From contig CM073321.1 in NCBI GenBank assembly GCA_037043015.1, positions 11,602,001-11,666,000 on the forward strand: a stretch of 64,000 nt of DNA. Direction: 5' to 3'. The translations under genes were made by a program, and so were the position numbers. The stretch is from Bryum argenteum. Lineage: Eukaryota; Streptophyta; Bryopsida; Bryales; Bryaceae. Below the pieces are notes generated by a model. It was not told the DNA's origin. It did no database searches and was given only the letters and a program-made list of their open reading frames with translations. Shown piece by piece: positions 655 to 27,041 of this stretch (the first letter of the stretch is position 1; every line of letters begins with the position of its first letter).

Positions 655-899
655 CCACTTTGTCCTCCATAATAGCTAAAGCCGCGATTGACTATTCAGG
701 TCGACGTGAGCTAAATACCAATGTCTTCAGTGATCAAAATGTTTATTCCTCCTCCGCCTCAAAACCCAAAATACTTTGTTGCTCTTATCCACTTTGTCCT
801 CCATAATAGCTAAAGCCGCGATTGACTATATAGGTCGACGTGACCTAAATACCAATGTCTTGAGTGATCAAAAATTTTATTCATCCTCGACCTCAAAAC
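655..899. repeat. Direct duplication, two copies of about 111 bp
   Basis: Copy 1 is 655-765 and copy 2 is 789-899, offset 134 bp, with only a handful of differences. Copy 2 includes the last codons and stop of the minus-strand transposase-like gene ending at 877, so the duplication copied the gene's 3' end and flank. Each copy contains the motif AGGTCGACGTGA(C/G)CTAAAT (about 831-849 in copy 2). Confidence 0.85.
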
Positions 900-3768: not shown

Positions 3769-4029
3769 GTAGAGCGGTCACGCCCTGATTATAGCTCCGT
3801 GAATATGCTATACAACATCTCAAAGATTCAAATAACCATTAGAAAAATGAACACGCAAACATGATATCTCAAAACATGCTGAGAAAAACCTAAGGAAGTA
3901 GTATTTAGCTCGACTGGACTTAATTTCCTACCTAATATACTAGTTTATAAATAATCATTTAACATCCAATACGAACGATCTAAACCATTAGACTGTTGAC
4001 ATAGCTCGAAACAATAACTTAAACAAATA
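3769..4029. other. Intergenic, upstream of the transposase-like gene
   Basis: This short AT-rich spacer would hold the promoter of the minus-strand gene. I see no clear TATA box or other element. Confidence 0.4.
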
Positions 4030-4965
4030 CCGTGCGTTTAGGATGCATCGACCTAAACAGATCGGGTTTACCAGGCAGCGATCTAAACACTCTGCATCTA
4101 TATGGGATCAACCTAAATACTGCGTTTAACAGACAGCGACCTAACCACTGCCTTTATTTGGGATCGACACAAAATCGCGCACATTTTAGCGGCGACCCTA
4201 AACACTGCGTTTAGCAAACAAATGACCTAACACTACGATCGATTCATGAGAGAGTTCTTACCATCGCTTTTAGAAGGCAAAGAACCTAAACAAAGATGCG
4301 TTACGCGGCGAGACCTACACACCGAGCGCTTAGCAGGCAGGGACCTAATCACTGAATGTATAGCAGGCAGTGACCTGTACACTGATTGTTTTGAGGGAGC
4401 GACCTGAACATTGCGTTCGGTTGGAGGCGACCTGAATAGTGCGTTTAGCAGGCAGCGACCTAAATACTTTAAGTTAAACAGGCATCAACCTACACACCGT
4501 GTGCTTACCAGACAGCGACCTTGTATCTGTGCGTTTAGCAGACAACGACCTAACACTGCGTTTAGATGGGAGAGTACTCAACACTGTGCGTTTAGCAGGG
4601 AGCGTTCAAACACTGCGTTCAGTTGGGAGAGTACTAACCACTGTGAGTTTATCAAGTAGCGACCTAAACACTGCGTTCAACAGGCATCGACCTACACACC
4701 GTGCGTTAAGCGGGTAGCGACCTAAACACTGCGTTCAATAGGCATCGACCTACACACCGTGCGTTAAGCGGGTAGCGACCTAAAATCTATGCGATTAGCA
4801 GGCACCTACCTAAAGCTGTGCGTTTAGCAGGCTGCGACCTAAAAGGTGTGCGTTTAGCAGGCTGCGACCTAAAAGGTGTGCGTTTAGCAGGCTGCGACCT
4901 AAAAGGTGTGCGTTCAGAAGGCTGCGACCTAAAAGCTGTGCGTTTAGCTCGTAAAATAGGAAATA
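4030..4965. repeat. 30-bp satellite, left arm
   Basis: Degenerate copies of a unit reading roughly GTGCGTTTAGCAGGCNGCGA then CCTAAA recur throughout. Between about 4812 and 4930 four near-perfect 30-bp units stand in a row; copies are irregular further left. Each unit contains a small inverted repeat, GTTTAG...CTAAAC. It is not a CRISPR array, because there are no unique spacers. Open frames across it are repeat artefacts. Confidence 0.85.
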
Positions 4966-5582
4966 CCTGATTTTGCGACCTAAATGCACACCCATCGACC
5001 TTAATGCACAATGAAAAATGTAGAGCGCGGAGAGTCGAAAAATGCAAGATCAGATTGGAATTGAAATGCAAATGCGTAAGAAATCGGGATTGCGTATGCA
5101 AATTGCGTACCTGCTAAGAGTGGAGAGAGGAAAAGCAAGCGCGCTTGAACTGCTGAGACCCTAGCCGCAAATCAGGGATCAATACAAGTACGACCTAATC
5201 GCAGCAGAAACCCCAGCTCAATCGCAGCAGTAGAAACCCCAGCTCAATCGCAGCAGTAGAAACCCCACCTCAATCGCAGCTCAATCGCAGCTCAATCGTT
5301 GTAGTAGAAACCCTAGCTCAATCGCTGGCATGCTTGAGTAGCGCTGAGCGCCGCATGAAGGTCGGGCGAGCGCCGGTCGTCAGGCGGTGAGCGAGCGAGC
5401 CACCGGGGCCCTTGGTCGGGTAATGCGAGGCGGGAAGCCCATTCGAAATCGGGCGGGAAGCTCGCGCCAACGGGCGGCGGGCTGCCCTGCGCCTTGATGG
5501 TGCCCGCTGCCCGGCCTACCCTACGCGACGTGGCGGCGCGGGGCTGCTGCCCGGGGGTGCCCGGGGGTGCCCGCTGCCCCAG
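4966..5582. repeat. Inner part of left inverted arm
   Basis: A unique block (4966-5200) is followed by tandem copies of AATCGCAGCAGTAGAAACCC (about 5195-5320) and a GC-rich block ending in repeated GGGGGTGCCC. The reverse complement of each part lies in the right arm. The sharp change from GC-rich to very AT-rich at 5583 marks the arm-loop junction. Confidence 0.8.
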
Positions 5583-8500
5583 ATAAATCATATGATCAAA
5601 ATAAATTAAGTCTAAAATATATTTTAATTAAAAAATTAAGACATAATTCTGTAATGCAACTAACTTATTTGTTTCAAAATCATTGATTAAGATTTTGATT
5701 ATACATAGGCTAATAAATAATTTATTACTCTTTCTATCACACTTTCTAACGTTGTGCTGAAGTACTCACTTTAGATCAATCTCAAAATAAATGAATAAAA
5801 ATAATTCAAATCGAATCATACAATAACACATTCAAAATAACTAAATTATTCCATACCTAGAATAGTACATATACTTTACGAGTTACTAAACTTCGAGTAT
5901 TGATCATCAAATAACTCAATTAAAATCTTAGAATATTTCCCTTACAATATCTAGATTCGGATCTTAATAAACCAACTTTTAATGAAATTCTAATATATTA
6001 TAGCTATCATATCAAACTTCATTTACGAAATATTTATTTTAGTATACCACATCAAATCTAGTAAATAAATAAATTAACAAGATACAACATATTGTACGTA
6101 GGTAATAAACTTTGAATATTGCACTTACAACAATTTTAATCCTAGAATACCTCTATTAGAAATTATTAGTACTAATATATGTAGGTTACTGAACGTTATT
6201 TTCCAAATACTTAGATTAGAATATTTCAACGCTTAAAATAAATAAACACAAAAATTAGAATACTACTTATAAAATGTTTGAATCCTAATTATTCTTAGAT
6301 TACATCACCGAATTTAGCAAGAATTATGTTAATATAAGTTCATACTTATTTACTAAATACTATTTTGGTATACTTTACTCTAAATTTAATCAAACTATTA
6401 TCTATACTTGAAAAGCAAATAATTAAATATTATTTTCATACCAAAAATGATGTAACAAATATCATGTCTAAAGTTATTAGGATATGACGATTATTAAGGC
6501 TTTAAATAAAGTATAACAATTTATTTTTATAACTTTTTGAAAACTAAATCATACATATAACTTTTTAGAAAAAATTAGTATTTTCAGAAAATAAATTCAT
6601 CTAATATTGTTAACTTTAATATAGTCTTTAGCTTATTACGTATCAGTTGATATAAATTTTTTATAGATGTTACATTTTACATGTTATATTTATCAAAAAC
6701 TTATTTATTCACGAAGATAATACTTATAATTCAATGTATATTTCAAATACATAAACCAATTATAAATCATCAAAGTGAGCATAAATTTTTCTATAAAATC
6801 ATTAAAATCAAACGAAAAACAGAAGTAAAAAAATAAAACAATCAAGGTATTTTAATTTAAATAAATTTAAGAACAAATTATAATATATTTTAACAGAGTA
6901 AAATTATTCTTAAATTTTATATAATTTTATAATATTCAAATATAAATGATAAACTCAATTTCCATAAATAAATAATAAACAAAATACGTAAACACAATTT
7001 TCAACAAAAATATTTATTTTATATTAAGTTAGATATACATGTCATTCGTATTATACGATCGAGTTATTTTACGGGCTAAATATTATGTTAATATATACTT
7101 ATCTACCTGCGTCGGTTCTACCGTAGCAATAACGGTAACTTTTTTATGGCAACTTTAATATCCATACGAATACATCTTGATTAAAATTTGTCACAAAATC
7201 AAACATACACCTGATTTTTCTAAGTTATATTGAAACTCGGATCTGTTGTTTGAATGAAATTTCTGCTAAACAACTTCTATATAAAATTAGTATAATTCCG
7301 TTCGACTTATACTCTCGGTATTTCAAATGTTAGCTATTGTAAAAGCGCGACATATGCAAACCTCATTTTGCAATGCATCAGTCTTTCATCCACAACGTTT
7401 GAATAAGTAGAATAAAGCAGTTTCATGCTTACAAATGAAAACAAACGTTTTCGAAAAGTAAAAATATTATCAAAGATCTCTAAGTTGTATTGTAACTAAA
7501 AGTAAAGGTACATTAACACAAACTGAATACAAATTCATAATTATACAAGAGACAAAAATTAATATACTGTGACAATTTTTAATTAAATAACCATTTTATT
7601 CTTATCTTTAGTATTACTTATTTTACAACGTTGTATTAGATTTTAACTTTCATTCCCGAGGATTAAATAATTGAATAAACACTTGAATATTTAAGAAAAT
7701 CTATGTGTGAGAAATTGAAACTATTCTATGCTTATGTCTTAGATTATTTGACCTTGTGTAATCATAGGATTAAGATTTATGAAAAGTAACTAAAGAAATG
7801 AAAGTTTTTAGTACTGAACCTTAAGCTTAAACGTAAGCTTAAAACACGTAATTAGTTATAATGGGAATATTCAGATTATGAAATTGATGAAAATTGAGCT
7901 TCAGTTGAGCCAAATGTATTGTGTGGGTACATCTAGTTCAACTCAAGTTAAACCCACATTTATGCATCATTTAACTAAATATGGACTTTCGGCTTATTTA
8001 TGGACTTTAAAACATGGGGAGATCCCTCCATCTATGATTTTAAAATCTACATATTAAAAGAATATCTTCATGGAACCTAGATTTTAGAAATCAATTTGCA
8101 ACTATTGTTCTTAATTGTAGAACGCGCATTGTCCATATTTAGTCAAATATGTAATATTTCTCAAAATCAGTGAATGATACCATTATATTGAATTACAACA
8201 CTTCTCACAGTGAATAATAACATTATATTGAATTACAACACTATTCCTTGTTGGCTTTGGAGAAGGTGTATCCAACGGTCGTTTCTGACGTTCTTCCGAA
8301 CAATCCACTCAAGTTCGGACCTGCACCCATCCACGCGCTATCTACCTCATCAGCTATCTAAGCCAGGATCTTTCACCATGTTGTCCGGACGAAGTGACGA
8401 ACTCTTCAGAAAATCACCCCAATAAACCCCCAAGCAGCAACAATGTACATACATCCAGAGAATCCATATTGATTATTAAAATTGAAACGAATGAAACTAT

Positions 8501-11500
8501 TCGATCATAGATGATTTTCTTAATGTTTCATCAATATGGATAATTTATCTTCTGGCATGCACTTTAATACTTCCTTACATTTCTTTGAGGAAGAGAGACA
8601 CGACACTCGACTTGTGTTGAGTTTCAATTTTGTGTGAAAAGATTGCAATAAGTCTTATATATTTTGCATTCTTTTATGTTGAGGAGTGTTGAAACATTGC
8701 TACAGCTATGATAAAAGGTTGTAGAAGCGGCAAATACAAAGTTCTTTCCTACCAAGTTTGCGATTGTGTTTCTGGCATAACTAATGCGCATAGGCGAATT
8801 TCAATTTCGATACATAAGAAGATAAAGAATTATGTTTCTTTCTTTGATTTTAAATTGTGAACTGTCATTACATAAACAATGTTTTTGTTTGATATACACT
8901 GTTGCTCATTTGATATATACCGTTGCTTGTTTGATATACACAGTCGCATATAAAAACGAAAAAAAACCATGAAATCATGTTCACAAAAGAAGAAATGTAA
9001 TTTATTAGGATTTTTTTCATTTAAAAATTATTTTAATTGTAAATGCTTGCGAATATATTCAATATAGAATGAATGTTGATCAATTTTGCAATTAAATTTA
9101 AATAACTAGTATCTTAGAGAATTGTAAAATTGAAATATCTATACTTTTATGAAACAAATAAACTATTTTACTCTATTTATCAAAGAATAATATAAATTGA
9201 TACAAATTTCAAAAAAAGAAGTAAAATAGCAAATTATAAACTAAGAAAAATTATAAATTTTGATTAAACTAAAAATTAGCGTGTATAAATTATAAAATGT
9301 AATTTCTAAAATTATATCAGTATTACATCTATACGGTTTATTCTGATTAATACTGTTCAAAATGAACAAAATATTTAAAAATAATGAAAAAATAGATTAA
9401 TGAAACGAATAGAAAAATTCCATTATTTGGCTAGGTAAGTATCATGTTATGATTATTATAAAAAATAAAATAAAGAAAATTGTAGAAATGCAAAGAAATA
9501 TTATTGACATAATCGCATCTATATGTAATGTTATGAATGCAATTCATATAACTAACATTAATAAATAAGTATGGAATGAAAAAGTAGAATGTAAATGTAA
9601 TAACAGTTTAAACATTCAAAATATATTTAAAAAATGAAATAAAAGTGTTATTTTTGTTTTTTTTTTTTTTTTGAGTTTAATTTATGTAACTCATTTTATA
9701 GCAAACAATTAAAATATTAAGCATACAACTACAGTAGATGTGTAGTTACAAGTATATTAATAACAGCAAAGAGAGTTGAATTCCAGCTAATAATGACTAT
9801 ATAAAAATGATACAATTTTGACAAAAACAAACGAATAAAGCAATTATATGTAATAATTTATATGAAATGACGAGATTTTAAATGCTTGAAACTCAAGAAG
9901 TTAGAAGAAAAACTTAGATGTTTTATACAATATGAACAACATAATTATGATGAAGCATCGTCTTAAAAACTGTATTATAATCGTAAATTTTGAATTGTAT
10001 GTATTCGAACAATGTTTGTAAATTAACTATCATTTGTTTTATAGGTAATTAAGATGTGTATAATCTTTAAAATTAATCTAAAATGTTATTATTTTAAGTA
10101 GTACTTGTAAATAGTTATGATTGGCTAAAATCAGTCATTATATGATTAAATTGAAATAGACTAGAAGTACTTAATGAGGGACCTTAATATTCACGTAAAA
10201 TAGAACAAATTATTATAATAATAAAACTTTGTTGTGTTTGTGATTGAAAGGTAATTCGAACAACTTGGCAAATCAAATAGAGAACTGTAAATTGATATTT
10301 TGAACTTAACTTCTTAACGGTCGGGGCTATATTTAGCAAAATAGCACATTTCCATAGAAATTGTTTTAGATAAAAACCATTAGAAGCTATTGGAAGTTAA
10401 ATCGTACAAACTTGTAATAGACTTATCAAAGATATTGTGGACCAATATTTGAGGTCTTATAAATTGGAAGATCATAACTTATTAATATCAAAAATAAATT
10501 GCAAAATTTTATTATTTAGACTATGTTGTAAAATTGCTACTAATTTACGTATTGCAATGAAATTATAACCAATGAGATTATGTTGTTCGCATTTATCTTT
10601 ATGAGTTTTTTATTTAACAAAAATACATCAAAAAAATTTCTTGGCTGAAATAAAAGTCATGCAATCGTAGAAACTACTGAACATTTCAAAACATTGGAGG
10701 CCATTTCAAAAAATTAAGTTGAATTCTAACGGTGGATGAGAGAGATATAGTTTTTTAAGTATCATACATTCTTCATTTTTATTGTTGGCAAAACATCATT
10801 GCAAATCCAATATCAAAATCATTTGAAACAAGAAACTACACATTACAAAGTTGTTAAGGATCTCCTAAGATTTAACCATGAAAAAATAAAATCATCAAAT
10901 ATTATTTTTCATTTCACATAATTGCTTGCAATTGAAATACATGCGTTAGGCTTGGAAACCCAAAAACAAAAGTTCTCTTCTCATAAATGCATATCATTAA
11001 TTATACTTTATTGTATGAACTTGCAAATTTTACAACTCGAACTAGACGTGATTAATAACCAAACCAGGTAGGAATGTAATTTTCTTAGTTAGTAATTAGA
11101 AACAATTATCTTTGACTAAAATCAAATATTATATGATAAAATCGTAATAAAGTAGAAGTAAATAATAAGAATCCATAATAATTACGCCGCATAATCTTAG
11201 AATAAGGAAACTTTGTCGTGTTTGTGATTGAAGGCTAATTCGGAACAATCATTCTAACAAATCAATTAGAATCTTGAGAATTGAATGGCGTTTATAACTT
11301 AACAAACTTCAAATAGGTTACAAAACAAATAAAAAAGTAACTTATATAATTTGCTTATTGCTCTTCAAAAATGAGGTTCGATCATAATCCGCTTGTTTGG
11401 ACTCTTTGGGGTTAAATAAATCTCAAAAAGTGCAGTAAAGTGGTCTAGAGAATATTCTAATAATTAGAAAATTAATAAATTTGGACATTTTGTAAGTAAT

Positions 11501-11592
11501 GGAAAAAAGCATACAAAAATAAATATTGTGAATTACAGTGTTTGAATTTAACAAACTTTAGTAATAAAAAAAAACAAAAAAATTACAATACT
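5583..11592. other. AT-rich loop, six kilobases without genes
   Basis: The base composition is strongly AT-rich and I see no reading frame that looks coding. A 71-codon frame at 8210-8425 lies in a short patch of normal composition and has no recognisable motif. Small features are a direct repeat of about 25 bp (8177-8202 and 8218-8243, ATTATATTGAATTACAACAC), a T-tract near 9656-9672, and similarity of 7842-7879 to 167-206. It could be a non-autonomous filler, an eroded insertion or a matrix-attachment-like segment; nothing in the sequence decides. Confidence 0.6.
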
Positions 11593-13262
11593 ACGGCAGC
11601 GGGCACCACGGGGCAGTCGGGGCACACCGGGCAGCGGTGCCCCATCCCGTAAGGGCAGCGGGCACCACGGGGCAGCCATGGCACCCCGGGCAGCGCTGCC
11701 CCATCACGGGCGGGCAGCGGGCACCCAGGGGCAGCCCGGGCAGCGACCCAACGCCGCCTAATGTTCGTGGGGCAGCCCGAGCAGCCGCCACGTGGCCCAT
11801 ACCCTGGGCAGTTGGCGGGGTCGCCGACATCTCCCGCGCGAGCGCCCCGCCGACACTCTCGCTGTTTTTCGCTCGCATTGCCGTTTGCCGCTCCTCCCAC
11901 TCAGCTCCTCGCCATTCGTTCTTCGTGCTCCTCGCCATTGCTTCTTCGTGCTCCTCGCCATTCCTTCTTCGATCTCCTCGCCATTCGTTCTTCTTATCGT
12001 CGCAGGTCCTCCCGCCTTCGCGCATTTGCGCCGATCGTCGCGGTCTTCTTGCTGGTGCTCTACGTCGCCCTCTTAGCGCGATTGAGCTGGGGTTTCCGCT
12101 GCGATTGAGCTGGGGTTTTTACTGCTGCAATTGAGCTGCGATTGAGCTGTGTTTGAGCTGGGGTTTCTACTACTGCGATTGACTGGGGTTTTTGCTGCGA
12201 TTAGGTCATTCTTGTTTTGATTTCTAATTTGCGGCTAGGGTCTCAGCATTTCAAGCGTGCTTGCTTTTCCTCTCTCCACTCTTAGCAGGTACGCAATTTG
12301 CATACGCAATCCCGATTTCTTACGCATTTGCATTTCAATTCCAATTTGATCTTGCATTTTTCGACTCTCCGCGCTCTACATTTTACATTGTGCATTTAGG
12401 TGGATGGGTGTACATTTAGGTCGATGGGTGTGCATTTAGGTCGCAAAATCAGGTATTTCCTATTTTACGAGCTAAACGCACATCTTTTAGGTTGCAAAAA
12501 CTGGTATCTCCAATTTCACGAGCTAAACGCACAACTTTTAGGTAGTCAGGTCTAAACGCACACTTTTTTAGGTAGTCGCCCTCCTAAACGCACACTGACT
12601 CTCGCGTAGTCGCCGCTAACCCCCACGCTTCTAGGTAGTCTTTTCAAACGCACAGCTTTTAGGTAGCTGCTTTCTAAACGCACACCATTGATGTAGCTGC
12701 TTTCTAAACGAACTGCTTTTAAGTAGCACCCTGCTAAATGCACAATTTTAAAGTAGCTGCCTCCTTAAGGCATAGCTCGTACGTGGCTGCCTCCTTAACG
12801 CACAGATGTTTCGTTCATGCCTTCTTAACGCATATCTTTTAGCTAGCTCCTAGATAAACGCACATGTTTTACGTAGCACCATGCTAAACCCACAGCTTTT
12901 AGGTAGCTCCCTGCTAAATGCACATTTTTTAGGGAGCTGCCCCTTTATCGCACACCTCTTACTTAGTTGCCTCCTTAAAACACTACTGTTAGGTAGCTGC
13001 CTTCCAAATGCACTGATGTTAGGTAGATGACTTCATAGCGCACATCTCTTAGGTAGGTGCCTGCTAAACACACCTTTTTTAGGTAGATGCCTGCTAAACG
13101 CACATCTTTTAGGTAGATGCCTGCTAAACGCACATCTCTAAGTAGCTGCCTGCTTAACGCAGATATTTTAGGTAGCTGCCTCCAAAACGCACATTTGTTA
13201 GGTAGATGCCTGATATCGGACAGCTTTTAGGTAGCTGCCTGCTAAACGCACGGTTATTGCGC
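11593..13262. repeat. Right inverted arm with 30-bp satellite
   Basis: This is the reverse complement of the left arm: GC-rich block (11593-11870) with repeated GGCAGCGGGCACC, a CT-rich block with CTCCTCGCCATT repeats (11900-12000), AGCTGGGGTTT repeats (about 12080-12190), the unique block (12190-12460), then the satellite (12460-13262) with units near TTTTAGGTAGATGCCTGC then TAAACGCACATC. It ends about 12 bp before the start codon of gene A, so it forms the 5' flank of that gene. Confidence 0.8.
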
Positions 13263-13274
13263 TGAATTGCAGAC

Positions 13275-13298
13275 ATGGCTCGCACCAAGCAGACTGCT
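13275..13298 (+). other. Histone H3 N-terminal mimic (ARTKQTA)
   Basis: The first codons read Met-Ala-Arg-Thr-Lys-Gln-Thr-Ala. After removal of Met this equals residues 1-7 of histone H3, including Lys4, the site read by ADD, PHD and other H3K4 readers. The eighth residue is Thr instead of Arg and the sequence then departs from H3. It sits exactly at the start codon of an exon with a good donor site (13368), so the free N-terminal alanine of H3 would be reproduced. Confidence 0.85.
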
Positions 13299-13367
13299 AC
13301 AATCGTTCCCGCTCCCGCAGAGAGGGACATCCGTTCTAGGAGTCAGGATGAACCTCTTGACAATCAC

Positions 13368-13583
13368 GTATGAATTTTTCTTGTACTTTAATGGTTTGTT
13401 TTTAAATTTTGATCGTTTGTTTTTAAAGTCATATCCAGTAGATGTTAGGTAGATGACTTCATAGCGCACATCTTTTAGGTAGGTGCCTGCTAAACACACC
13501 ACTTTTAGGTACATGCCTGCTAAACGCACATCTTTTAGGTAGATGCCTGCTAAACGCACATCTTGTTGCTTCTTTAAAATCAG
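13368..13583 (+). other. Gene A intron 1 with satellite units
   Basis: The intron runs from GTATGAAT to AAAATCAG. From 13441 to 13566 it holds four units of the same 30-bp satellite found in the inverted arm just upstream. The satellite therefore lies on both sides of exon 1. Confidence 0.75.
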
Positions 13584-14985
13584 GTACCGTTTGACCTTAG
13601 TACTATTGAAGGATACCTGGAGCCCCTTGTTGTCAAGCCTACAGATGTACTTGCCTCTGCTGTCGCGGACGTCGAGCAATACGGCATGTTGTGGACTCCT
13701 AAGCCGAATTCGATTGTGTCGTGGTCCTTACACCCGAAGGAGAAAGGAATTTTCCACCTGTTTCAACAATCTGGAACTAATCCTGCCCATCTCCCATTCT
13801 GCAACGACACTTTCATATATTCGGTGAACTATGAGGAGTCTCACCTTTTAATCACGCTGAAGGTGACCTACGTTCGTGGATTTGTCTTCACCATCGTCTT
13901 TCCTACGAATGAAGTGCGATACTCGCACGACACTATCAAGTGCTACTTAGTCGGGAAGACGGAGGCGGGGCTCGTAGACCACATCGTGGGTGGCATACTG
14001 AATGTGAGCTCTCCGAAGAAATTTGTGCAGACCTACCAGCAGTATTGCATGCATATCTGGAGTGCTCTGAACGACTACGAGAGAAGCAAGGCAAAAGACA
14101 AAGCACCCGCAAGGAAGGCACTCATGCCTGCTTTTGAGGAGGGTACGGGGTCAAGAACAACGCGGTCTGGTATGGCCTCCATTGAGGTAACTCCTACACC
14201 TTCGCGGAAACGCCGCAACTCGAACCCCTCGCCAATTAAGCAGGCCAAGAGAATCAAGAGTAAATTGGCAGGCAGTACAATTACGTACATGAATCCTTCA
14301 ATCAAGCATGCCACAACCGAGAAGGACATCGACTACGAAGCTGCAAGTAAGACTCTGAAGGACTTCTGGGAAAAGTGCGAGCCTTGTTACGTTTTTGGCA
14401 ATGACTCGGCTCCTGTCAATGTGGACATCGATCTCCTCCAGAAAGCTGATGCGCGGTTCATCGTCCGAAAGCTTGAGCCCGCTGGAATTGTGCATTACAA
14501 GAATATCCTGACGAATTCGATCGATTTGAATTCAAAGCAGACCATCATCATCATGCCCATCATCACTGTAGCTCCTGCGACTTGGGACTGGGATGCACTA
14601 CTCGAGTCAAAGTGCAACTTCCGTGTGATCGATGGGCAGCATCACGTCGAAGCTGCGAAGGAGCTTATCAAGGAGGCTAGAATCTCAGCCGATAAGATTA
14701 CCGCCTTGAAGACCCGGCGGGCTCATATTGTTTGGCATACAGATGCAAAGATGATCATGGACGTGTCAATCATGGCGAACAAGACCAACAACGCGGGAAC
14801 ATTCACACCATCGTGGGCCACAAACATATTGGCCGCAAGAAGCGTTTGAATAGAATACGGGTCGCCTGCGAAGTGTGGTGCAAAGCCCAAGTCTGGTCGG
14901 GAAACAATCGAGCAAGCTATCGCTCGAAAGAACTATGAGATAAGTCTTGCATTTTCTTATAATTTTATCTGCTTGATTTGTGACG

Positions 14986-15100
14986 TTTAGGTCGACGCAA
15001 CCTAACTTTCAGGTGTTTAAGTCGATGCAAGCTAAATTCTCTGCGTTTAGCTAGACTCGACCTAAATTCCGTGCGTTTAGCTGGACTCGAGCTAAATGAT
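14986..15100. repeat. Four quasi-palindromic TTTAGGTCGA motifs in intron 2
   Basis: Four copies of the pattern GTTTAGNTNGAN(4-6)GCTAAA or its ACCTAAA form occur at about 14985-15006, 15019-15040, 15043-15068 and 15078-15099. The same pattern recurs in gene A intron 3 (16514-16534 and 16653-16673), in its last intron (42224-42244) and inside an exon (17391-17411). Confidence 0.75.
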
Positions 15101-16509
15101 CATCCCGTCATCTTCTTGAATTGATGTCGCTCTTTCTTCTTCAGGATTTTGAAGAGGCCATGGTGAAACGCTTCATGAGTATCAACACGAAATCCCTCGA
15201 CAAGCTCTTAAAGCCAGCGGACCTCCTCAACGAATTAGAAATCATCACCACTTCTAAGGAGGTGTACGAGCTGTGGTCCGAAGTTATCATTGCGGTCGGG
15301 ATGGGAGAGTTGATCGACCCCGACACTTGCGAGCCTTTCAACCGGGCTCTTGACTGGGAGTCAAAACATAAGGACATCGTCTTGACTCGCGATACCTTCA
15401 GGCAAATGTCTGCATTTGAGGAGCACGACTTCAAGACACTAGCGCTTCATCTTCTGAATAGGACTCCGGACCGGGACCTACCGTATCCCAAGGTGTCTTT
15501 GAAGAAACCGAAGCTGAACTACTGGGAGTGCGTTTTGATAAAGGTGTGGCTGGAGAAGCGCAAGAGGAAGAAATGCGTTGCAAGAGAGTTCCACAACATC
15601 AGGCCAGCACTGGGGTTATTCGACAGTGCTGACAAGTTTGTGGTTGAAAAGTGGAAGCTTTTCAAGTTCGAATACAACGTCAATCGGCAGACCATGTTGA
15701 TGCTCCTTTCCGTGCCCGGGGACGTGTTCTTCAGCAACTACCGCCAGAAGAGGACGAAGAACAAGAGTTCTGAAGAGATCTCCGAGTACGCTGCGGAGTT
15801 CTTCAAGAAGTTTTTGGAAGTGAAAGGGGATTTTTCGCTGCCAACCCCGGAACTTCACACAAGAATGTTTGATGCTGAGACGTTTCAATTCGATGGCTGG
15901 GATAATGGGTATACTTGGGACGATGGAAGATGCGCGTTGGGCATTATCGACCTCAGATGCGTCCTGAGCCATAGTAGCAGAGTGGATGATATTTCGAATG
16001 TCTACTTCAAGGACTTCCTGAATGCTTGGAAGGATTGTGTGTATGACCCATCCACCAAGAATCCTGACGTCTGGCTTATTATTATGGAGACTACCGATCG
16101 TCATTGCCAGGCCGTCGTATATATCAACGCTTTCAAGGATTTGTACAAGTCGAAGGTAGTTCACTACGCTCCCGCGAACAATGAGCGTCTCAACGGTATC
16201 TTGGAGGAGAAGGTCGTCGACAAACACCGCATTCCACTCTTGTTTCCACCGCATTCCGCTGAAGAGAACCCACTAGGTATCCGAGGTATTCGACGAAATT
16301 CCGGAGACATTCTATGCCCCGGAGTTGCCCCTGTATCAGAAACCAGGAGCTTACAGGGAGTTCTATTTCTGCATCAACGACAACGAGTTGCGCTTGGAGT
16401 TTTACATTCGCGTACTGCGAATGTTTACAGTTTCAGGAAACAGATTTCTGTCGATCATGGGTGGAACAAAGCCCATGCTTGCAGGAATTGTAAGTTTCTC
16501 ATTCCTTTG

Positions 16510-16712
16510 GACGTTTAGGTCGATGCCACCTAAATGTCTGTTTTTGTCAAGTTCGCATCTGCTCTTCTGTTGTACTTGTGAATTTATTTCCCCTAAATCT
16601 AAAGTACACTAGATTTACTTGGCGTTCTTCAAACTTGACACTGATTTGGGCGTTTAGGTCAATGCCACCTAAATGTCTGTTTTGTCAAGTTCCCATCTGC
16701 TCTTTTGTTCTT
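16510..16712. repeat. Direct repeat within gene A intron 3
   Basis: About 63 bp beginning GTTTAGGTCGATGCCACC (16512-16575) is repeated at 16651-16714 with a few changes. Each copy starts with the palindromic motif TTTAGGT...ACCTAAA. Confidence 0.75.
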
Positions 16713-17390
16713 CTTAGTTGACTAACTTTGTGTTTGCATTTCGCAGATGCTTAATCTTCAGACTGATATTGTCTACGAGGACAAAGATGAGTTGGATAAG
16801 TACATAGCCGTCCGAGAAAGTAGTTTTAATCTCGATCCGAACGACTTCTAAGTGGACGCCTACGTGAATCTAGATTGGGTTCGTGGTCTGAAGCCTAGGT
16901 GCTTGCCTCAGGCAGGGGTTACCAGATCTGCTCGTCGTGGTCGTGGGGAGGCATCGTCATCTGGTGGTCGTGCTCGTCGTGGTGAGGCATCCTCTCCTGC
17001 TGTGGCTCCTGATGGCGAGCCATCGTCTGTTGGTGGTGGGGATCCGTTGCCTGTTGGTGGTGGCGATCCGTCGTCTGCTGGTGTTGCTCGTGGTGGTCGT
17101 CCATCGTCTGGTGGTTGTGCTCGTAATAGTAATCCGTCGTCTGGTGGCCGTGCTCGTGGTAGTAATCCGTTGTCTTCAGGCGCTCGTTCATCCGGCGGTC
17201 GTGGTGGGCGTGGTCGTGGTCGTATTCGCGCACCTAGTGGGCCTTCTGGCGTGCGGGCTCTAAGCATTGAGCCCATCCAGAGCATCGTTCCTGTTTACAG
17301 GAACCTGCTGATAAATCTTGGCCCCGATGACGACGCTGATGAAGTTCTTCCATTGGTCGAGCGTCGCGGCTCTTTGGCCCGCGGTGGGGG

Positions 17391-17411
17391 TTTAGGTCGC
17401 ATCGACCTAAA
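17391..17411. repeat. Perfect 9-bp inverted repeat inside an exon
   Basis: TTTAGGTCG and CGACCTAAA are separated by three bases. It is the most perfect copy of the motif that recurs in gene A introns, and here it is translated as part of the linker. Confidence 0.9.
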
Positions 17412-18354
17412 TCCCCCTACACTCCTTGAGGAGACACTTGCCTCCACGGGCCTCCCCAAAACTCTTAGCGACGATGATAATGAAGAAGACAACTCTGATC
17501 ATCATTGAGAGACCCGCACCAAGGCTGCAAATGATGTTTTCGGGTCTGATTCGGAGGAGGACCTCGTTCTCGGGCAAGAGAGGTTGCCCAGAGATGCGCC
17601 TACTTCCGATGGTTCTGACGAAGAGAAGGCGGAAGAGGGTGCCGAGGAGGGTACTGCAGGGTCTGACGAGGATAACAATATCGATCCCTCTCCTATGAAT
17701 TTGGGAGATGATGTCGTATCCTCCCCGGCTCCTATGCAAGCCCCATTGTCGGATCGAGCACTACAAAGGGGATCAACGCCGCCTTCGACACTTGCAAGAG
17801 AATCATCCCCGCCTCCGCCGTCTCTTGTGCACGCATTACCTGCTCCTGCCCCTGTACGCGGACGGTACCTCCCTTTGTTGAAGAAGGGTGTTTGGAATAC
17901 TCATGCTGACGACCCTGCTGAGAAGGTGGAGACTACATTTTTCGAGTTCTCGGGTGAGCCGGATTCCCCCACGCCAGCAAAGGAGGCTGACGATCCGATC
18001 ATCAATCTTGGTCTCGGTCCGCAAGAGAAGGGTGAACCTTCACAACCGCGAGTGAAGATTGAGTCGAACATTCCCGTTCCACTCTTGAAGGATGCCAAGC
18101 GTGCCCTGCGTCAGAAGGAAAAGGAAGAAAGAAGTGCTGCCTAACGAGCTGAAGAAGAAGCCGCAAATGCAAGACGGGAGGCGCAAAGACTTGCAGATCT
18201 TGCGAGTTTGGACGAGCAACGGCGAGAGGATCAACTTAAATTCGAGTCGAAGTTGTCGGATTTGGAGAACTCAAATTCCAGAGTTCTTGGCGATTTGAGC
18301 GATTTGAGGGTCTTGTTGACGCAGATAGCACAGGTGGCTCTTCCCCTTGCCTCC

Positions 18355-18819
18355 TGTAACACCCTCCAAGTATGGAGGATGGCAAGGTGGACTTGGGCGC
18401 CAGAAGAATGCTGGCGCCCCTTGCTAATAGCCAGACCCGGTTGGGAGTGCCAACCTAGAGCGGGCGTATCTAGGTTGGTCGGTATGGGGGGCCGTGCTTG
18501 CGATGCGAGTACAAAGGGGGCGCGGCGCGATGCGACGCGCGGTGAGGCCAGGATGGACTCGGAGCTCGCTAGGACTAGCGTGGTAAAGCCGTGTCTCGTG
18601 TTCTGGCATTGTTGCCTTAGCGCGGGGCTCCCGAGGGTGAGACAAAGTGAGACCCACGAGTTGGACTAAGCCAACCAAGTGGCCTTGCAGGCGGATGCTT
18701 GTTAAGGTTAGAGTGCTAACCGTGTGCTTGTTTTGTGCAGGTACTTAACTAAGGTTAGTGACAACTAAGTGAGCAGCTCGGAACGGCTGGGCGTAGCATG
18801 GAGTTAGCGAAGGGTTACA
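18355..18819 (+). repeat. Gypsy 1 5' LTR
   Basis: 465 bp, starts TGTAACACCCTCC and ends GCGAAGGGTTACA. It is the partner of 41243-41707. Reading frames within it are not genes. Confidence 0.95.
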
Positions 18820-18821
18820 TG

Positions 18822-18833
18822 TGGTATCAGAGC
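18822..18833 (+). other. Gypsy 1 primer binding site
   Basis: TGGTATCAGAGC lies two bases after the 5' LTR. It is complementary to the 3' end of plant initiator methionine tRNA, the usual primer of plant LTR elements. Confidence 0.9.
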
Positions 18834-18906
18834 TTTTGAAGCGTGGTATTGCGAGGAGTCAAGTTCCGCTACTTGAGAAAGGATTTAGGCGTTTCACTCA
18901 GGAGGA

Positions 18907-21900
18907 ATGGGCAAGGCGTCTTGGTCCAAGACAGTAGAATCTTTGCGACAGGAAGCCTTAGACGACATAGGTACTCAGCAGGAGAGGATGGCCACACTGG
19001 AGGAGTTGGCGGCGGGAGCTGTCATCCGACAGAAGAAGGGCAAAGCTCGTGCTGAGGAAGTGGTATCTCTAGACGAGCAGGAGCAACTCCAGGACGCTCA
19101 GGACTCCGAGGAAGTCCCAGAAGAAGGAAATGATTAGGCCCACTCGGAAAGTGAACAGGAGGGAGTTTCAGATAGGGAAAACCCGCAACACCGGGAGAAG
19201 ATGAAGCATTGCGAGAAGCCCACTCGGCGAAAGTTGGCCTTGGAAAAGGAAATCGAGAATATGAAAAGCCAAATGGCCCTTCTCTTTAATCTCGTGAGTT
19301 GGGGAGGGCGCAGTGAAGGGAACACTCGAGGGGAGAGGTCCGACTTCCTCAAAAACGCCCCGAAGCCCGCACTTTGGGAAACAAAGGATAAGAGGAATGT
19401 TGAGGCTTTCCTCTCAGAGTATGAAGTCTACTGTGAAGCCTCGGGACTTTAAGGGGATAATGAGAAAGTGAGATCGTTTGCTCCCTTTCTGAAAGAGGGA
19501 GCATCCATTACCTTTATGTCCTGGAAGAACCAGCGCGCGGAGAAGGGTCTCATCCCGTGGAAAGAACTCAAGGAGTGGGCCATCAAAATATGGCGAAAGC
19601 CCCATCAACACCTTTGGATGTCTGAAACTTGGGGGCGATGAAGTACAAGGGTGATAACTTGGCCGCTTTTGCTGAAGAGCACAAGGCCAAGTACCTCCAA
19701 TACCGTTGTATGGAGAATCCGGGCCTTGCGAATATGAGCAGCTTCCTCGCCGCCCTAGATGACAACATTAGGAGGAAGGTGTGGGAGAGGGAAGTGCTCC
19801 CCACCAACATGAAGGAACTATATGATGTGGTCATACGACTTGGGGACGCGAGGGAGGTTGGACGCCACCACAACCCGAACAAGCTGTTTGGTAAAGAGAA
19901 CCAAGCGAAGGACTCTACTCCTCAGCATTCGGATGGCAAGAAGCGCAAGGCGTGGGGACGTCCGTCAGGTGCAGGTGGCCAGCAGGCCAACTCAAAGCAC
20001 GGAGGCAACAAGACCCCGAAGAAGGCGCGAGTCGACACCGCCGAGGCTAAGGAGAAGAATCTATGCTTCTCTTGTGGGAAGCCGGGGCACCGAGCAAGCG
20101 ATTGCCCCACCAAGAAGTCTAAGGTAGTGACTTTAGCGCAAGACCCCGAACCTGAGTCTACCATGGACTTGGAGCCAGAGTTGGAGTCAGTGGGGGAGAT
20201 AGCTCCCCCAAGTGTAAGTGTTAGGAAGCAGGTGAGAAGGGGAGGCTTCGCGGCCTCCCTCTCCACCATCAACCTTCAAAGAGGTTTGATCTATCTTGAC
20301 ACTAAGGTAAGCGGGACTAATGTGGCGATGTTGCTGGATACAGGTGCCACCAACTCCTTTATGACTCCCGAGTGCGTGAAGAGGTTGGGATTGAAGCGCA
20401 AGAAGACGGTGGAGCCCGTGAGGGTGATGTTTGCTCAAAGGCGCGCTGTTGCAACGGAGGTGGTACTAGCTGTGGGATTCAAGGCAGGAAATCGGAAGTT
20501 TGAGGAAGACTTCACGGTGTGCGAGCTTAGTGGGCTTGATTGTGTTTTGGGAAACACTTTCTTAGACTTCTACGGAGACGAAGTTAGAAGGAGGCCTAAG
20601 TTAGAAGTGGTGATGGTGAGCGGGGACGGGAAACCAACCTCGCTGCCTTACACCAAGACTCCTAGCTTAGGTAGTGTAGGCATAAAACTTGTAGCGCAAT
20701 CGGAGCTTGGTGATGAGCAGTTTGTATTAGTTATGAGGGACCTATTCCTCCTTGATGAAATAAAAGAGAAATTTTCCGAAAATGAGTCGAGTATCATGAG
20801 CAAAGTGTTGGGTGCTTTCAAAGATGTTTTGACAGATGATCTCATGGGGGAACTACCTTCCAGCCAGGAGGTTGATCATCACATTGAATTAGTTCTAGGC
20901 GCGGAACCCTCTAACAAAGCCCCGTACCGCTTGAATCAGAAAGAGCTCGTGGAGCTCAAAAGACAACTTGATGAACTCTTAGAGAGAGGTTACATCAGGC
21001 CCAGCAAGTCCCCCTTTGGGACCCCGGTCCTCTTTGTGAGCAAAAAGGATGGTAAGTTGAGAATGTGCATCGACTACCGGGGTCTCAACAAAGTCACAGT
21101 TAAGAACAACTACCCGCTACCGAGAGTTGATGATTTGTTGGATCGGTTAGCGGGTGCTAAGTACTTTAGTCGGATTGACTTGAAGTCAGGGTATTACCAA
21201 ATCAGAATACATGACCTCGATGTGGCCAAGACGGCCATAAGGACCCGGTATGGGTCCTATGAGTTTTTGGTGATGCCCTTTGGATTACGCAACGCCCCGG
21301 CTACCTTTACAACGATCATGAATTCTATCTTCCATAAGGAAATGGATCAATATGTAGTTGTCTACATTGATGACATATTGATCTACTCAAAGACCTTGGA
21401 AGAGCATGCACAGCACGTTAAAAATGTGCTCTAGAAGTTGCGAGACAACAAACTCTTTGCCAATGCGAGCAAGAGTGAGTTTGCACTCAGGGCGTTGGAA
21501 TTTTCGGGTCATGTCCTCAACGGCGAAGGCATTATGCCCAACCCCAAGAAAATAAAGGCCATTCAAGAGTGGCAAGTCCCGAAGACACAAAAGGGTGTCA
21601 GATCCTTCTTGGGGTTGGCAAATTACTACAGAAAGTTCATTAAGAACTTTTCTAAAGTGGCTGGACCACTCTCTGATCTTTTAGTCAAAGAGAGCAAGGT
21701 GATCCAATGGAATGAGGAATGTGATAATGCCTTTGCCGAATTGAAGGCACTGTTGAGCAGTGCTGGAGTATTGAAATACCCAGAATTTGATAAACCCTTT
21801 GAGGTGCACACCGATGCCAGTGACTTTGCCATTAGTGGAGTGCTTATGCAAGATGGACACCCCGTGGCCTATAAGAGTCGCAAGTTGACAGGGTGTCAAC

Positions 21901-22365
21901 TTAGGTGGCCAACTCACGAGAAGGAGTTGTATGTGGTGATCCAATGTCTAAAAACTTGGAGGTATTACGTGGGTGGGATAAAGACTAAGGTCTTTACAGA
22001 CAACATCTCACTCAAGTATTGGGATTTCAAAGCGACGGCGACACCTAAGGAACTTAGATGGTACGATATCATCATTTCAATGGATGTTGAATTGATACAC
22101 AAACCGGGGCGTGACAACTTAGTCGCGGACGCTTTGAGCAGGCGCGAGGAGTTTATGACTCCTCGCATCATGACCATGGTTCAAGAGGAGGAAGCCCGGA
22201 ATGAAGCTGGGGAGGATAATCCTGTTACAGCGGCTTTCATCCAGGAAGTGAGGGAAGCCATGAAAACCGAAATGATGCCATTTGGAATGAAGCCATCTTC
22301 AACTCGGTTCGCAAGTAGGGTACTGGAGACAGCGCTAGAAGGGTGCGTAACCTCAAGAGGAAAAA
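18907..22365 (+). pseudogene. Gypsy 1 gag-pol, 5' part
   Basis: From the ATG at 18907 the frame encodes a charged gag segment, then a capsid region (from about 19330), a CCHC knuckle [14 protein letters not shown] (about 20062-20105), an aspartic protease with [11 protein letters not shown] (about 20331-20363), reverse transcriptase with the YIDD box (about 21364), RNase H ([13 protein letters not shown], about 21807-21845) and the start of the integrase linker. It is damaged: in-frame stops TAG at 19135, TAA at 19450 and TAG at 21432, and a frame change near 19600-19640. The MULE cuts the gene after 22365 within the RNase H-integrase linker. Confidence 0.9.
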
Positions 22366-22403
22366 GGACGCAGCTACGGTGTGAGCGGAGAGCGGTGAGC
22401 GTT
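22366..22403 (+). repeat. MULE left terminal inverted repeat
   Basis: It begins GGACGCAGCTAC and then GGTGTGAGCGGAGAGCGG. The inner 24 bases match the reverse complement of the right end exactly; the outermost bases match loosely. Confidence 0.85.
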
Positions 22404-22840
22404 GAGCCATCAAATTTCAGGATTTTGAGCGCTGAATTGGTATTTTTAGTAAATAAATTTCTAAAAATAATATTTTACTATTTTTTCACGAATATTCTCA
22501 AGAATATTAGAATATTCTTGACTCATTACCGTGGTTTTGTGCTCCTAAACCCGTGGAGATAAGGCTAAATTTTCTGAAATTTGGTGGACTTAAACCACGT
22601 TCTTTAAACATGAAGAGACATTTACGAATTTTATAGAGTAGACTAGAATATTATAACTGTGAAATCAACAGTCCATGATTGTATAGCAAATCATAAATTT
22701 TTGTATATATAATAACATTTATTGATTATAGTAAAACGCTGATATCAAAATAAATAACGTGTGAAACACAAGATTACAGGGATAACATGTAGAATGGGTA
22801 GATGTAGATGCTGATTTACGTAGTGTGACATTGAGGTAGT
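22404..22840. other. MULE left subterminal region
   Basis: This AT-rich non-coding stretch lies between the terminal repeat and the end of the transposase gene. It contains a short inverted tract around AATATTCT (22490-22515). I see no gene. Confidence 0.5.
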
Positions 22841-25800
22841 CTACTCTCTAACTTGGTCTAGGATTCCCCTCTCTAGAATGTTTTTCACCTCGTTGAAACT
22901 GAGGGTGGGCGCTTGGATGAAGAGGTCTCTATCAATATCAAATTTGCATACCAATACCAACACGAAGTATAGGTGCTTGCAATGTTTATACGGTTCGCCT
23001 TTTCGTCCTAACTTAGCTATGGTTTTTTTGAACACCGGGCAAGAACACTCAGGGTTCTCACTAAGAGATAGTTTATAGATAGACTCTGAATCCGACTCCA
23101 AAGTGACGATACATCCAAAACCAGGTTGTGGTATCATGGTCACCTCGAGTATTTTTGCCTCCATGGCACGAGCTGAATCAATGTTCTTCATGTGCTTCGG
23201 AGTCACAACCTTGATGCGTCGAAGAACTTTAGACCTGCGTGATTTGGGGTACAAATCAGCCTTGTCCGGCACAGGAATATGTGACAAGTCTCTCGGTGGC
23301 GCAGAAGTATTGAATGTGCGGTTGAGAGGAAGGCGTTCCTTTTGTGGGAGCCGAAAACCCGCATTCTCCAACGCCTCTATTTCGTCTAGTGTCAGATTAT
23401 TCCCAATCTTCACGGGCCAAATAGAGGGAATAGGCGGTCGACCTTGTTTCCGAGAGAACGGCTCAATCCATTTACGACGACTGCCCTTCACACAACGCTC
23501 AATGTCGTCTGGACAAAAGAAAAACTGATCAGTTTTTTTTTGACCTTCTTGAGGACGCTGCCATACCCCGGTGTAAGTTGGAGCTGCGGTCGCCTTCCCG
23601 TTCTGGACAATGCGGGATTCACATTTCTTCCTGGTCTTAGCCATAATACCCCAACAAGCCTTGGATGAGGATTCCTTCAAACAAGGAATGTGCCATAGAC
23701 GCTCATTTACTCTCGTCTCTTGGATAGCAATGACGTACTGAATATTGGGTACTGGAGAAGCGGAGGGTTCCTGCAGTTGCTCTTGAACTTCATCTTCTTC
23801 ATGGATAGGACTAAGATTCTCAGCAAGAGCTCGTGTGACTCTTCTCCCAATTCGAGGACGTGAGTAACTCATGGTGTCAGGTCGATGAGTTTCATCTTCA
23901 GCACCAATGGGAACATCAGCCTTACGTTTCCTAGAACCAAAAATCTCTGCCCCCTCCAAGTGGGCGTCACGCGTACAATAAGCTTCTGCTTCAGGGAAGT
24001 CCATAATGGCCTTGTTGAGGCAAGATGGATTGCCGGATCGATTAGCACGACGTTGAGCGGTATAAAGACGCTGACGAAGTTCTTCAACGGATGGTCCAGA
24101 ACCACTTGCTCCGCCTTTATTGAATTAATGGTAGCCGACCACTTGGAGGAAGGCCCGAACGTAGTCATCAACGGCTGCGACGTAGAGATCCCTACTCTTA
24201 TTGCCAGACGCTTGCAGCCACGTGTTATGGATTGACTCCGCAAGATTACATGAAGGCATCTCTGCGAGTTCTTTTGCCGAATATTTTTTTTCCTGCAATG
24301 ATCAAACGTATTAGGCCTTTATTACTAATTAGGATTTGTACTTAATACAGATTCACAGTATATAAATCCACATAAAAATCAACTATTACTATATAAACAA
24401 GAACTGTTAATTTCTTTGGTACTGTCATAACATTACAAAAGCTACCATAGAGCATGAAATCAGCAGAATTATTGCAAAGAAATAGTACACTTACTAGTTC
24501 CATAAATCCACCCCATTGTCTGTATCTGAAGTGCCAGTACGCAAGCCAATGACCCAAGTGTTCTACACCAACTTCGGAGGTGGCCTTCGAGGATGCCCAC
24601 CACGCTCGAATAGCCCAATATCGGGTCTCAGCCTCTTCCATAGTGCACGCATCCTTGTACTGCTTACAGAGAATCCGGTGTTGGCCTTGCGATTCGGGCA
24701 CAATGTATTGTTTCGTATGTTTCTCAAGAGACTGTGTCCAGTGGAAATAACATGTGCGTTCGCGGCCTTCCATGGGGACAGCAGGGTTTCCAGAGCCGTA
24801 GATGATGCACACAGCGTTCCAGTTGGCTTGGGCACTATCAGCCATAAATCCTTGGAACTGCGGCTTAGGTACTCCATTCCTTGCCATCACATGATTTAGG
24901 TTTTTCCAGAAGACGAGTTGTGCATCTTTGTCCTCTGACTGAAAATCACAGCATGCAATGGTTAGAATGCGTTGGTAACGTGAGTCGTACACGTGGCAGG
25001 CCATGGTGGTCCAATCCGTAACGCGTTTGACATGGTCAAACATCATCCATGCGTGGGAGAGATTTCCTCCAGGCTGCATACGGCGAACCAGATCAACACC
25101 GCTACTGGGGCCGACCTCGGACATCTTGAAGATGAAGACTTTCTCCGATTCGTCGCCTTGGCCAGGGAACATGTTGCGTTGCACATATGCCCACTTGCTG
25201 GGACCTCTGAGCTTTGTACTCCCATCGAGAATGCCATACCTACGCAAGTACTTGAAAGTGTAGATACGATTGCGCATGCTGGGAGAGTTTAACTCTTTGC
25301 ATTGTTCAAAGACTGGTTCTAGCTGCTGAAGAGAAAGATTGCCGGTTTCGGGGTCACCTTCGTCACGAAGATGTAAGTTTCCTAACAAGTCTTTGCTAGT
25401 TTCCATAACAATTTTGGAAACGGTTGCTTGAGGGTTACGGTCAACATGCTCTTCTAGTAACTCATCTATTTTTTTCCGTACACATCTATAATCTCCGACT
25501 TTGACAGGATGTTCGTGTGTTCCTATATGGACACATGCACGCTCTTGACAATCTTCTCCAACTATGTAAAAGATCTTCGCAGAAAAAGGCGCAACACACA
25601 CATGAGGTTCTTTGCAAAGCTTACAGACCAGCGTGGATGAGGTCGGAGGCGCTCCGCCTACTGGGAAGGGGTCTTTGGTAATGCCTTCAAACTCCACGTC
25701 GTTCACTCCAGCGACTCGATCAGGTCGTTGCAAGAAGTCGCAGTTCGGGTTGTGGCACTGTAGATGACCTACACAATTCGAGTATCGGAAAGACAACCTC

Positions 25801-26618
25801 TGGGTGTTGCTGATGTTGGTGGTCATCGTTCTAGTCCGCACATGACTGTCGTACCGTTTATCCATCCCCTCCATGGACTTCGCGACCTTGTGAGTTGCAG
25901 ACGGAAGAGTGGGCGAAAAGATGAAGAGTACATCGCCATTGAACAACGGAGGCAAGAAAGGTACGTTGACACTGCGGATGGTTTTGAAATCAATTTTTTT
26001 GAGGAGAGTCTTGCTACTTGGCATTCTAGCGAGATTGCAGAGGGATGGAATAATTTTTTTGGGCTTTACAATTTGCGATGAAACTAAAGAAGAAGGGGTG
26101 GCTCTTAGATAGTTATCCCTAAGAAGAGGTGGCAATGGAATATCAGACGACAGACGACATGGTTGTAGAGGAGACTTCTTCTCGTCTTCTGATGAATCCG
26201 AAATGTCAATGGTGACTTCTAGACCTGGTTCGACCTTGACACGAGTAAGAGCTGGAGCAACCGTGGAGATAGTAGAAGAACTACGTGGGGTCAGGAGAAC
26301 TGTTGACGCGTTCATGACGGACTCCGTCAAGCCGTAGAGGCGATACTTTCCAGCTCTAAGCTTCCAGATTGTAGTATTGTTCTCGAGGATGATTGGATCT
26401 ACGACCATGGAGTACTGAACATTATTAGTATCAGGTTCTAGAACTTCTCTCTCTAACCACAGTGAAGAAGCATCGTAGCCAAATCGAATTCCAAGCCACG
26501 ATGCAGTGATGTCTACGACACCTTCAAGCCCTACGGACATGCAAATGGGAAAAAGTGCTCCCTGTGACACAATCTCAACAATGTCTGCAGCAGTGGGTTC
26601 AGAGGAGGAGGAAGCCAT
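22841..26618 (-). pseudogene. MULE transposase with SWIM zinc finger
   Basis: Two exons, 26618-24495 and 24292-22841, are joined by an intron with donor GTAAGTG and acceptor CATTGCAG, in phase 0, giving about 1,190 codons. I chose the ATG at 26618 (MASSSSEPTAAD); an upstream in-frame ATG adds 19 residues. Order: disordered acidic N-terminus; a Cys/His region with CHNPNC, CKLC and HIGTHEH (about residues 330-410), like the GCM/FLYWCH-type zinc folds of MULE transposases; the DDE core with TDWTTMACHVYD and GFMADSAQANWNAV, followed by C/H residues (CYFHWTQSLEKH); and a C-terminal SWIM finger ECSCPVFKK...YKHCKHLYF (about 22930-23060). It would bind the element ends and catalyse cut-and-paste movement in the nucleus. 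An in-frame TAA at 24125-24127 makes this copy probably inactive. Confidence 0.85.
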
Positions 26619-27041
26619 GATGTCCGAGAGGACCAACGAGCATCGACAGTGGATGTAAGGAAAGGATACACACAAGGTATGATACCGTTTATAAGAGAGA
26701 ATTTGTACTAAGATCTCGTAATGAAGTAAATAAGGTGGGGAGAGTAATTAAATCAGACAATTACCATGAGGAAGAGTGAATATTATATACCATTAGGCAA
26801 TTGTAATTAGTGTCATTAATATGCAAGTGTTGACAGTCTCAAAATTGGAAAAGTGACGGCGGCCGCCATTGTCAGAGCATTTGTATGCAAATTCAAATAA
26901 TAGATTAGCATCTCATGTCAGAGACTGTCACAGTTGACAGACCATGAGCCGTCATAGTTGTTGCAATAATTTATGATAAACTGCACAAATTACGTTAGGG
27001 GCGGCTTGTGAACTTTGTTTAAATAGGAGTAGGACGACGAG
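26619..27041. promoter_or_regulatory. Divergent promoter region in the MULE
   Basis: The spacer separates the minus-strand transposase from a plus-strand gene starting at 27042, so it should contain both promoters. GTTTAAATAGG (27017-27027) is a weak TATA-like site close to the plus-strand ATG. GTCAGAG...CTGTCAC...TTGACAG repeats occur at about 26871-26940. Assignment is by position only. Confidence 0.4.

Follow-up and report, generated by a model that had tools for sequence, protein, structure and literature searches.

We observed that a gene carried by a DNA transposon of Bryum argenteum, here called gene A, encodes directly after its start codon the seven residues ARTKQTA, which are identical to residues 1-7 of histone H3. 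The host element is a terminal inverted repeat (TIR) DNA transposon of approximately 21 kb, of which gene A is an accessory gene, and the copy described here lies in the window, that is, the whole stretch of 64,000 nucleotides that was analysed. The N-terminus of gene A is best explained as a transposon-encoded short-linear-motif mimic of the unmodified H3 tail, a reading that we consider the likeliest of those weighed below and regard in itself as evenly poised between right and wrong.

Exon 1 and the body of gene A

The match is contained in the first coding exon, which was located as follows:

13275..13367, plus strand: gene A exon 1, translated as MARTKQTATIVPAPAERDIRSRSQDEPLDNH, with H3 residues 1-7 after the Met

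The likeness ends at residue 7, with T in place of H3 R8, and the bases directly 3' of the exon are GTATGA, giving a GT donor. When the exon is joined to the acceptor ending in ...AAAATCAG and followed by GTACCG, it runs in phase into the 452-codon exon at 13584-14939. Thus three statements of the earlier note, namely the ARTKQTA start with immediate departure from H3, the donor with in-phase splicing into a long exon (which contains one stop in this copy), and the improbability of a chance match, agree with what was found. With the amino-acid composition taken from seven related proteins, the chance of an exact ARTKQTA after Met is about 1.2e-9 per protein start, and that of at least six identities in eight to H3 1-8 is 7.5e-7 per start; a degenerate DNA pattern with up to three mismatches gave one match in the window against 0.04 expected. 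In 58 of the 63 copies of the exon found in the genome, an in-frame stop (54 TGA, 4 TAA) precedes the ATG by 12 nt, so translation probably begins at the ATG at 13275, provided that the bases 5' of it belong to the mRNA. The GT donor is retained in 59 of the 63 copies, as counted by eye, and a simple text search placed the exon 2 acceptor AG where expected in 42, with another tetramer in 8 and no match in 13.

The remainder of gene A comprises the following parts:

13584..14939, plus strand: exon 2, 452 codons with one in-frame stop in the window copy and a DGQHH (ParB/DndB-like) stretch
15145..16489, plus strand: exon 3, with a frameshift near 16270 in the window copy, 445 codons in intact copies
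16747..18354, plus strand: exon 4, first part, with RG-rich and acidic stretches and with stops in the window copy
41713..42228, plus strand: exon 4, last part, ending in SFLSIVANLV and a stop

Gene A therefore consists of four coding exons of roughly 1,660-1,680 codons, as obtained by summing intact exons of different copies. The window copy is broken by a stop, a frameshift and the insertion of an LTR element, and its exon 2 donor reads AT where other copies have GT.

With regard to the family of the protein, exons 2-4 gave no match in Pfam (E<=0.05) or in NCBIfam (E<=0.1), methyltransferase families included, and the methyltransferase-like label of the earlier note is not upheld. Its placing of the gene in a ParB-methyltransferase family also falls away, as gene A belongs to a transposon and not to a host family. 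The proposed likeness to ParB survives in weak form: DGQHR is a motif of ParB and DndB proteins, exon 2 has an IDGQHH stretch, and DndB was matched below threshold (E 0.15) in two of nine exon 2 proteins, but no family reaches the threshold. The predicted model of exon 2 has a pLDDT of 58 and found no fold match at E<=0.001. Relatives of exon 2 with 47-66% identity were found as 11 proteins in public assemblies, none of them confirmed on a viral or prokaryotic contig. One of these relatives (P0010, 47%) and a relative of the DUF7869 gene described below (P0038, 84%) were each placed on a 43,751-bp ENA contig, which is probably one and the same. A full-length relative of gene A in another species, sought as a check on the start, was found in none of 7997 scored candidates at E<=0.001.

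Though the window copy is broken, gene A shows the mark of past function. With 19 of 24 copies usable and a neutral nonsynonymous share of 0.75, the internal branches of the exon 2 tree carry 107 nonsynonymous (N) to 144 synonymous (S) changes, an omega-like value of about 0.25, and the terminal branches carry 381 N to 249 S, near 0.5. This purifying selection on exon 2 signifies that gene A was a working protein during the spread of the element.

The transposon and its other genes

The boundaries of the element and the sequences between its genes were recognized as follows:

171..44588, plus strand: whole DNA transposon copy, with the TIR AACACRTAATTCATTATAATGG at both ends
171..198, plus strand: left TIR, compared with the ends of other copies
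44561..44588, minus strand: right TIR, the inverted end
4923..5325, minus strand: promoter/5' UTR region belonging to the left gene, which repeats in inverted orientation the region 5' of gene A
5600..11580, no strand assigned: AT-rich spacer (2-kb windows contain 23-34% GC) with no ORF of at least 170 aa, common to other copies
12078..12496, plus strand: promoter/5' UTR region of gene A, with a possible UTR intron donor near 12289
12646..13251, plus strand: 30-bp minisatellite 5' of exon 1
18355..41707, plus strand: LTR retroelement in gene A exon 4, foreign to the transposon, with LTRs at 18355-18819 and 41243-41707

Homology among copies starts at 170/171 (30 of 928 candidates scored), continues up to 18354 and resumes over 41713-44588 (40 of 315 and 40 of 119 candidates scored in the genome searches of this right part), and the net length of the transposon without the inserted LTR element was reckoned by hand at about 21.06 kb. 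All 20 ends of other copies examined (eight pairs and four single left ends) differ from AACACGTAATTCATTATAATGG by no more than two changes, as do both window ends by eye. Matching target site duplications (TSDs) of 4 bp flank seven of the eight pairs (ACAT, TTGC, CTCA, ATAT, TATT, TTAA and CATT, read by eye); by eye, the flanks of the pair at C1:21576-21598 kb and those of the window copy do not match. The left flank of the window copy is unique, and its right flank (44588-47142) is another repeat with a hAT-like ORF by eye and dozens of near copies (40 of 315 candidates scored). Taken together with the lack of a TSD, these flanks indicate that the ends of the window copy are not those of a simple insertion.

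The LTRs of the inserted retroelement are 98% alike and flanked by a 5-bp duplication, CCTCC, seen by eye (40 of 116 candidates scored for the region). Its ORFs at 32762-36252 contain GNHR and DLIFVDAP stretches, by eye ParB-like and methylase-like respectively; they are unrelated to gene A by BLASTP and have no Pfam match. Elsewhere in the window, direct repeats at 51572-52863 and 58334-59627, 99.6% identical, surround a gypsy-type ORF, and the whole is probably a very young LTR element. The AT-rich spacer is conserved among copies of the element, with identity of up to 96% (40 of 2748 and 31 of 1264 candidates scored). The two promoter/5' UTR regions, 4923-5325 and 12078-12496, are inverted relative to each other at 86% identity, each followed by a minisatellite. 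A splice in the 5' UTR of gene A near 12289 is possible, as read from the window copy; a text search found the donor in only 3 of the 24 copies with 1.5 kb of upstream sequence.

Apart from gene A, the element contains the following coding sequences:

1231..3768, minus strand: left gene, a DUF7869 protein and candidate transposase (PF25273, E 1.8e-22), with predicted start MASSASDDDWDN
42700..43566, plus strand: gene B, an NLI-interacting-factor-like phosphatase domain (PF03031, E 8.1e-6, 26 bits against a cut-off of 21.8)
43716..44228, plus strand: putative further exon of gene B, an open frame with no family match

The window copy of the DUF7869 gene (1231-2802) lacks FMIVGHTHDDID, several columns of which are at least 90% conserved among 30 aligned rows. 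The predicted model is of low confidence (pLDDT 60) with no reliable fold match, and a text search of the available literature gave no paper mentioning DUF7869. Relatives occur in Ceratodon purpureus (KC19_VG078600, 53%) and among Physcomitrium proteins. The catalytic motif of NIF/FCP-type phosphatases is DxD (DxDx); at this site gene B reads VVLELNGVLC in the window and VVLELNGV in another copy (L011), that is, ELN by eye instead of DxD, and gene B may possibly be a pseudo-phosphatase carried by the transposon.

Copies, ancestry and possible selection on the tail

The genome searched amounts to 258.8 Mb, and the window is on its contig C1 (44.1 Mb). A 24-nt tail pattern with up to three mismatches disclosed 71 sites in the whole genome and none with the reversed control; on reading, 63 were copies of gene A exon 1 and eight were true H3 genes (MARTKQTARKSTGG...) on C2, C6 and C7. 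C1 carries 53 of the 63 pattern-selected copies against 10.7 expected in proportion to its size. Both Ceratodon purpureus DUF7869 relatives named among the matches listed carry KC19_VG locus tags, which by their naming we take to mean the V sex chromosome, and C1 may be a sex chromosome. At C7:12326801-12330911 and L019, the left part of the element on C7 is inverted relative to gene A, a rearranged copy.

An exact MARTKQTA start was present in 43 of the 63 copies, the remaining 20 displaying a few residue changes or belonging to a common Q-to-M group. A degenerate exact search of the genome detected 55 MARTKQTA-coding sites, comprising these 43, the eight H3 genes that were read and four unread sites that are probably also H3 genes. 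When the search was made blind to the tail, with the 101 bases after codon 8 of one copy as query (40 of 68 candidates scored), 27 of the 40 copies began exactly with MARTKQTA, 12 had one or two changes when the start codon is counted as well (among these, the start codon was lost in four, and a stop was seen once, K4E once and Q5M twice), and one read MACMKMIA.

Older copies were obtained with the divergent copy L031 as query, for which 40 of 67 candidates were scored (the query itself, 11 young and 28 older copies). Two of the older copies (L113 and L123) were dropped with the expected ATG unaligned, and the 26 usable ones together with L031, which is also counted among the 63 rows, gave 27 older rows. 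Their starts are commonly of the ARIKSTAR or ARTRTTAR type, with ARTKRTAR and similar forms, and exact ARTKQTA occurs in none of the 27. Of these rows, 26 have A at position 1, 20 have R at position 2, 24 have K or R at position 4, 20 have T at position 6, 24 have A at position 7 and 24 have R at position 8; positions 3 and 5 are variable, with I at position 3 in 14. In a tree of few columns and mostly weak forks, parsimony assigned ART[K/R/S]TTAR to the midpoint root and ARTKMTAT to the node from which the young clade arises. The change from M to Q at position 5 falls on one branch, with support 99/94, and again in L043; the young rows outside the M group and L108 number 52 of 63. The clade that gained the exact match over 1-7 had lost R8. 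As far as the compared sequences tell, the H3 likeness is old and the exact match newer.

These older copies bear on whether exon 1 derives by capture from a gene for histone H3, as the earlier note had suggested besides mimicry. Such a capture would show as ARTKQTARKSTGG or H3 5' UTR sequence in an early-diverging copy. The exact seven-residue match at a start codon fits it, as do the 24 nt, which are two to three bases away from such H3 genes as the mismatch limit of the pattern admitted; however, the copies read have no H3-like residue past R8 (nothing after codon 9), positions 3 and 5 of the older copies resemble H3 less, and the sequence 5' of exon 1 is the element's own minisatellite. 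The older copies being merely H3-like, the exact match arose within the family and was not copied from a histone gene, and we consider capture very improbable. Alternatively, the N-terminus may be constrained for another purpose, such as a short basic nuclear-import signal, stability of the N-terminus or an interaction with the transposase of the element, with the H3 likeness incidental. The conserved positions are indeed simple (A, R, K/R, T, A), and what the older copies preserve is the looser ARx[K/R]xTAR rather than exact H3; on the other hand, the kept T6 and A7 and the Ala after Met seem untypical of a plain basic signal, and the most numerous clade is exactly identical at 1-7, so that this alternative appears improbable, less so than capture.

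Selection on the tail was investigated with a tree of 63 young copies built from the sequence 3' of the tail, on which changes were placed by Fitch parsimony using all 63 rows for codons 1-8 and frame-intact rows only for codons 9-31. On internal branches, tail codons 2-8 carry one N change (M to Q at H3 position 5) against five S, whereas exon 1 codons 9-31 carry 21 N to 7 S, as in neutral sequence. The difference between the tail and the rest of exon 1 has a Fisher p of 0.014, and the comparison of the tail with a neutral share of 71% N a one-sided binomial p of 0.0087, both resting on six internal changes, of which one in the T6 codon is on a branch with support 64/0, and on rows of which 62 of 63 had been picked by the pattern of up to three mismatches, which favours a kept tail. 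The synonymous changes at R2, T3 and T6 (H3 numbering) argue against a purely nucleotide-level constraint. Terminal branches show no difference between the tail (14 N to 7 S) and the rest (35 N to 15 S; p=0.79), as would be expected if most copies were dead. These counts are suggestive of stronger selective protection of the tail residues than of the other exon 1 codons.

The same counts must be weighed against the possibility of coincidence in a founder, whereby ARTKQTA was present by chance in the copy from which the amplified clade descends and is still visible because the members of that clade are young. The path from ART[K/R/S]TTAR through ARTKMTAT to ARTKQTAT takes few base changes, position 8 moved away from H3, the terminal changes in the tail look neutral, and the scanning of many genomes would make rare matches findable. 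Nevertheless, chance alone accounts poorly for the contrast between the tail and its neighbouring codons on internal branches, or for reconstructed ancestors that were already identical to H3 at six or seven of eight positions, given the low probability per start stated above. We regard a founder coincidence as rather unlikely, yet as the most credible of the three alternatives.

Proposed role and comparison with known systems

Mimicry of the unmodified H3 tail would act through a free N-terminus. The initiator Met is normally removed before Ala, and a free ART(K) end is what H3K4 readers and LSD1-type enzymes use. Gene A would be transcribed and spliced, its Met would be removed as the next residue is Ala, and A1-R2-T3-K4-Q5-T6-A7 would be exposed at the tip of a leader of about 30 residues. 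This end would dock on host H3K4 readers or modifiers (PHD, CW, LSD1-like enzymes), with the exon 2-4 body holding element DNA or partner proteins, and the element would benefit by recruiting host chromatin machinery to itself or by titrating silencing or demethylase factors. The gene A peptide ARTKQTATIVPAPAER is thus expected to bind at least one of the H3(1-15)-binding readers, writers or erasers. The functional mimicry raised in the earlier note, the best supported of the readings yet still a hypothesis, is favoured by the start kept in most copies of both young sets and by the five synonymous changes among six internal ones. Its expectation that other copies share the ARTKQTA start holds for the 43 of 63 and the 27 of 40, but not for 20 of the 63 or any of the 27 older rows, and exact identity was apparently not always needed, a point against the mimic. 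That the transposon evolved an exact free H3(1-7) mimic to hijack or blind the H3K4 reading or erasing machinery, the match arising in, and perhaps driving, the clade amplified mainly on the 44 Mb C1, is a more tentative proposal, to which we give somewhat less than even credence.

To our knowledge, most known cases of histone mimicry come from animal viruses and from host regulators, and among the matches listed in a literature search covering titles, abstract beginnings and few subscription papers, no transposon-encoded histone mimic appeared. If true, the proposal would allow a direct test of whether mimicry enables selfish DNA to escape chromatin marks or to make use of them, and the many copies with a readable path would provide a natural series of H3-tail variants. 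Gene A shares residues 1-7 with histone H3 itself, but its exons 2-4 match no Pfam family and so have no histone fold. SNAG-domain factors (GFI1/Snail) occupy LSD1 as H3-tail mimics and likewise have an N-terminal H3-like peptide exposed after Met; their sequence, however, is not ARTKQTA, and they are host factors rather than products of a transposon.

As an element, the transposon resembles Sola in its 4-bp TSDs and TIRs, 4-bp target duplications being described for Sola2 (PMC3627910), a resemblance set by these features and not by transposase sequence; in contrast to Sola, it has the DUF7869 gene, gene A and the NIF-like gene. Accessory genes in TIR transposons are described for Kolobok lineages (PMC9587614). 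The closest parallel to the proposed mimic is NS1 of influenza A H3N2, a well-described H3 mimic whose short copy of the H3 tail, in its C-terminal region, is held to engage H3K4-recognising factors (PMC12937675). Both are proteins of selfish elements that reproduce a brief part of the H3 tail, but the predicted mimic of gene A differs from NS1 as there described (PMC12937675) in that its motif opens the protein, Ala1 could be free and seven residues match exactly, and in belonging to a DNA transposon of the plant lineage.
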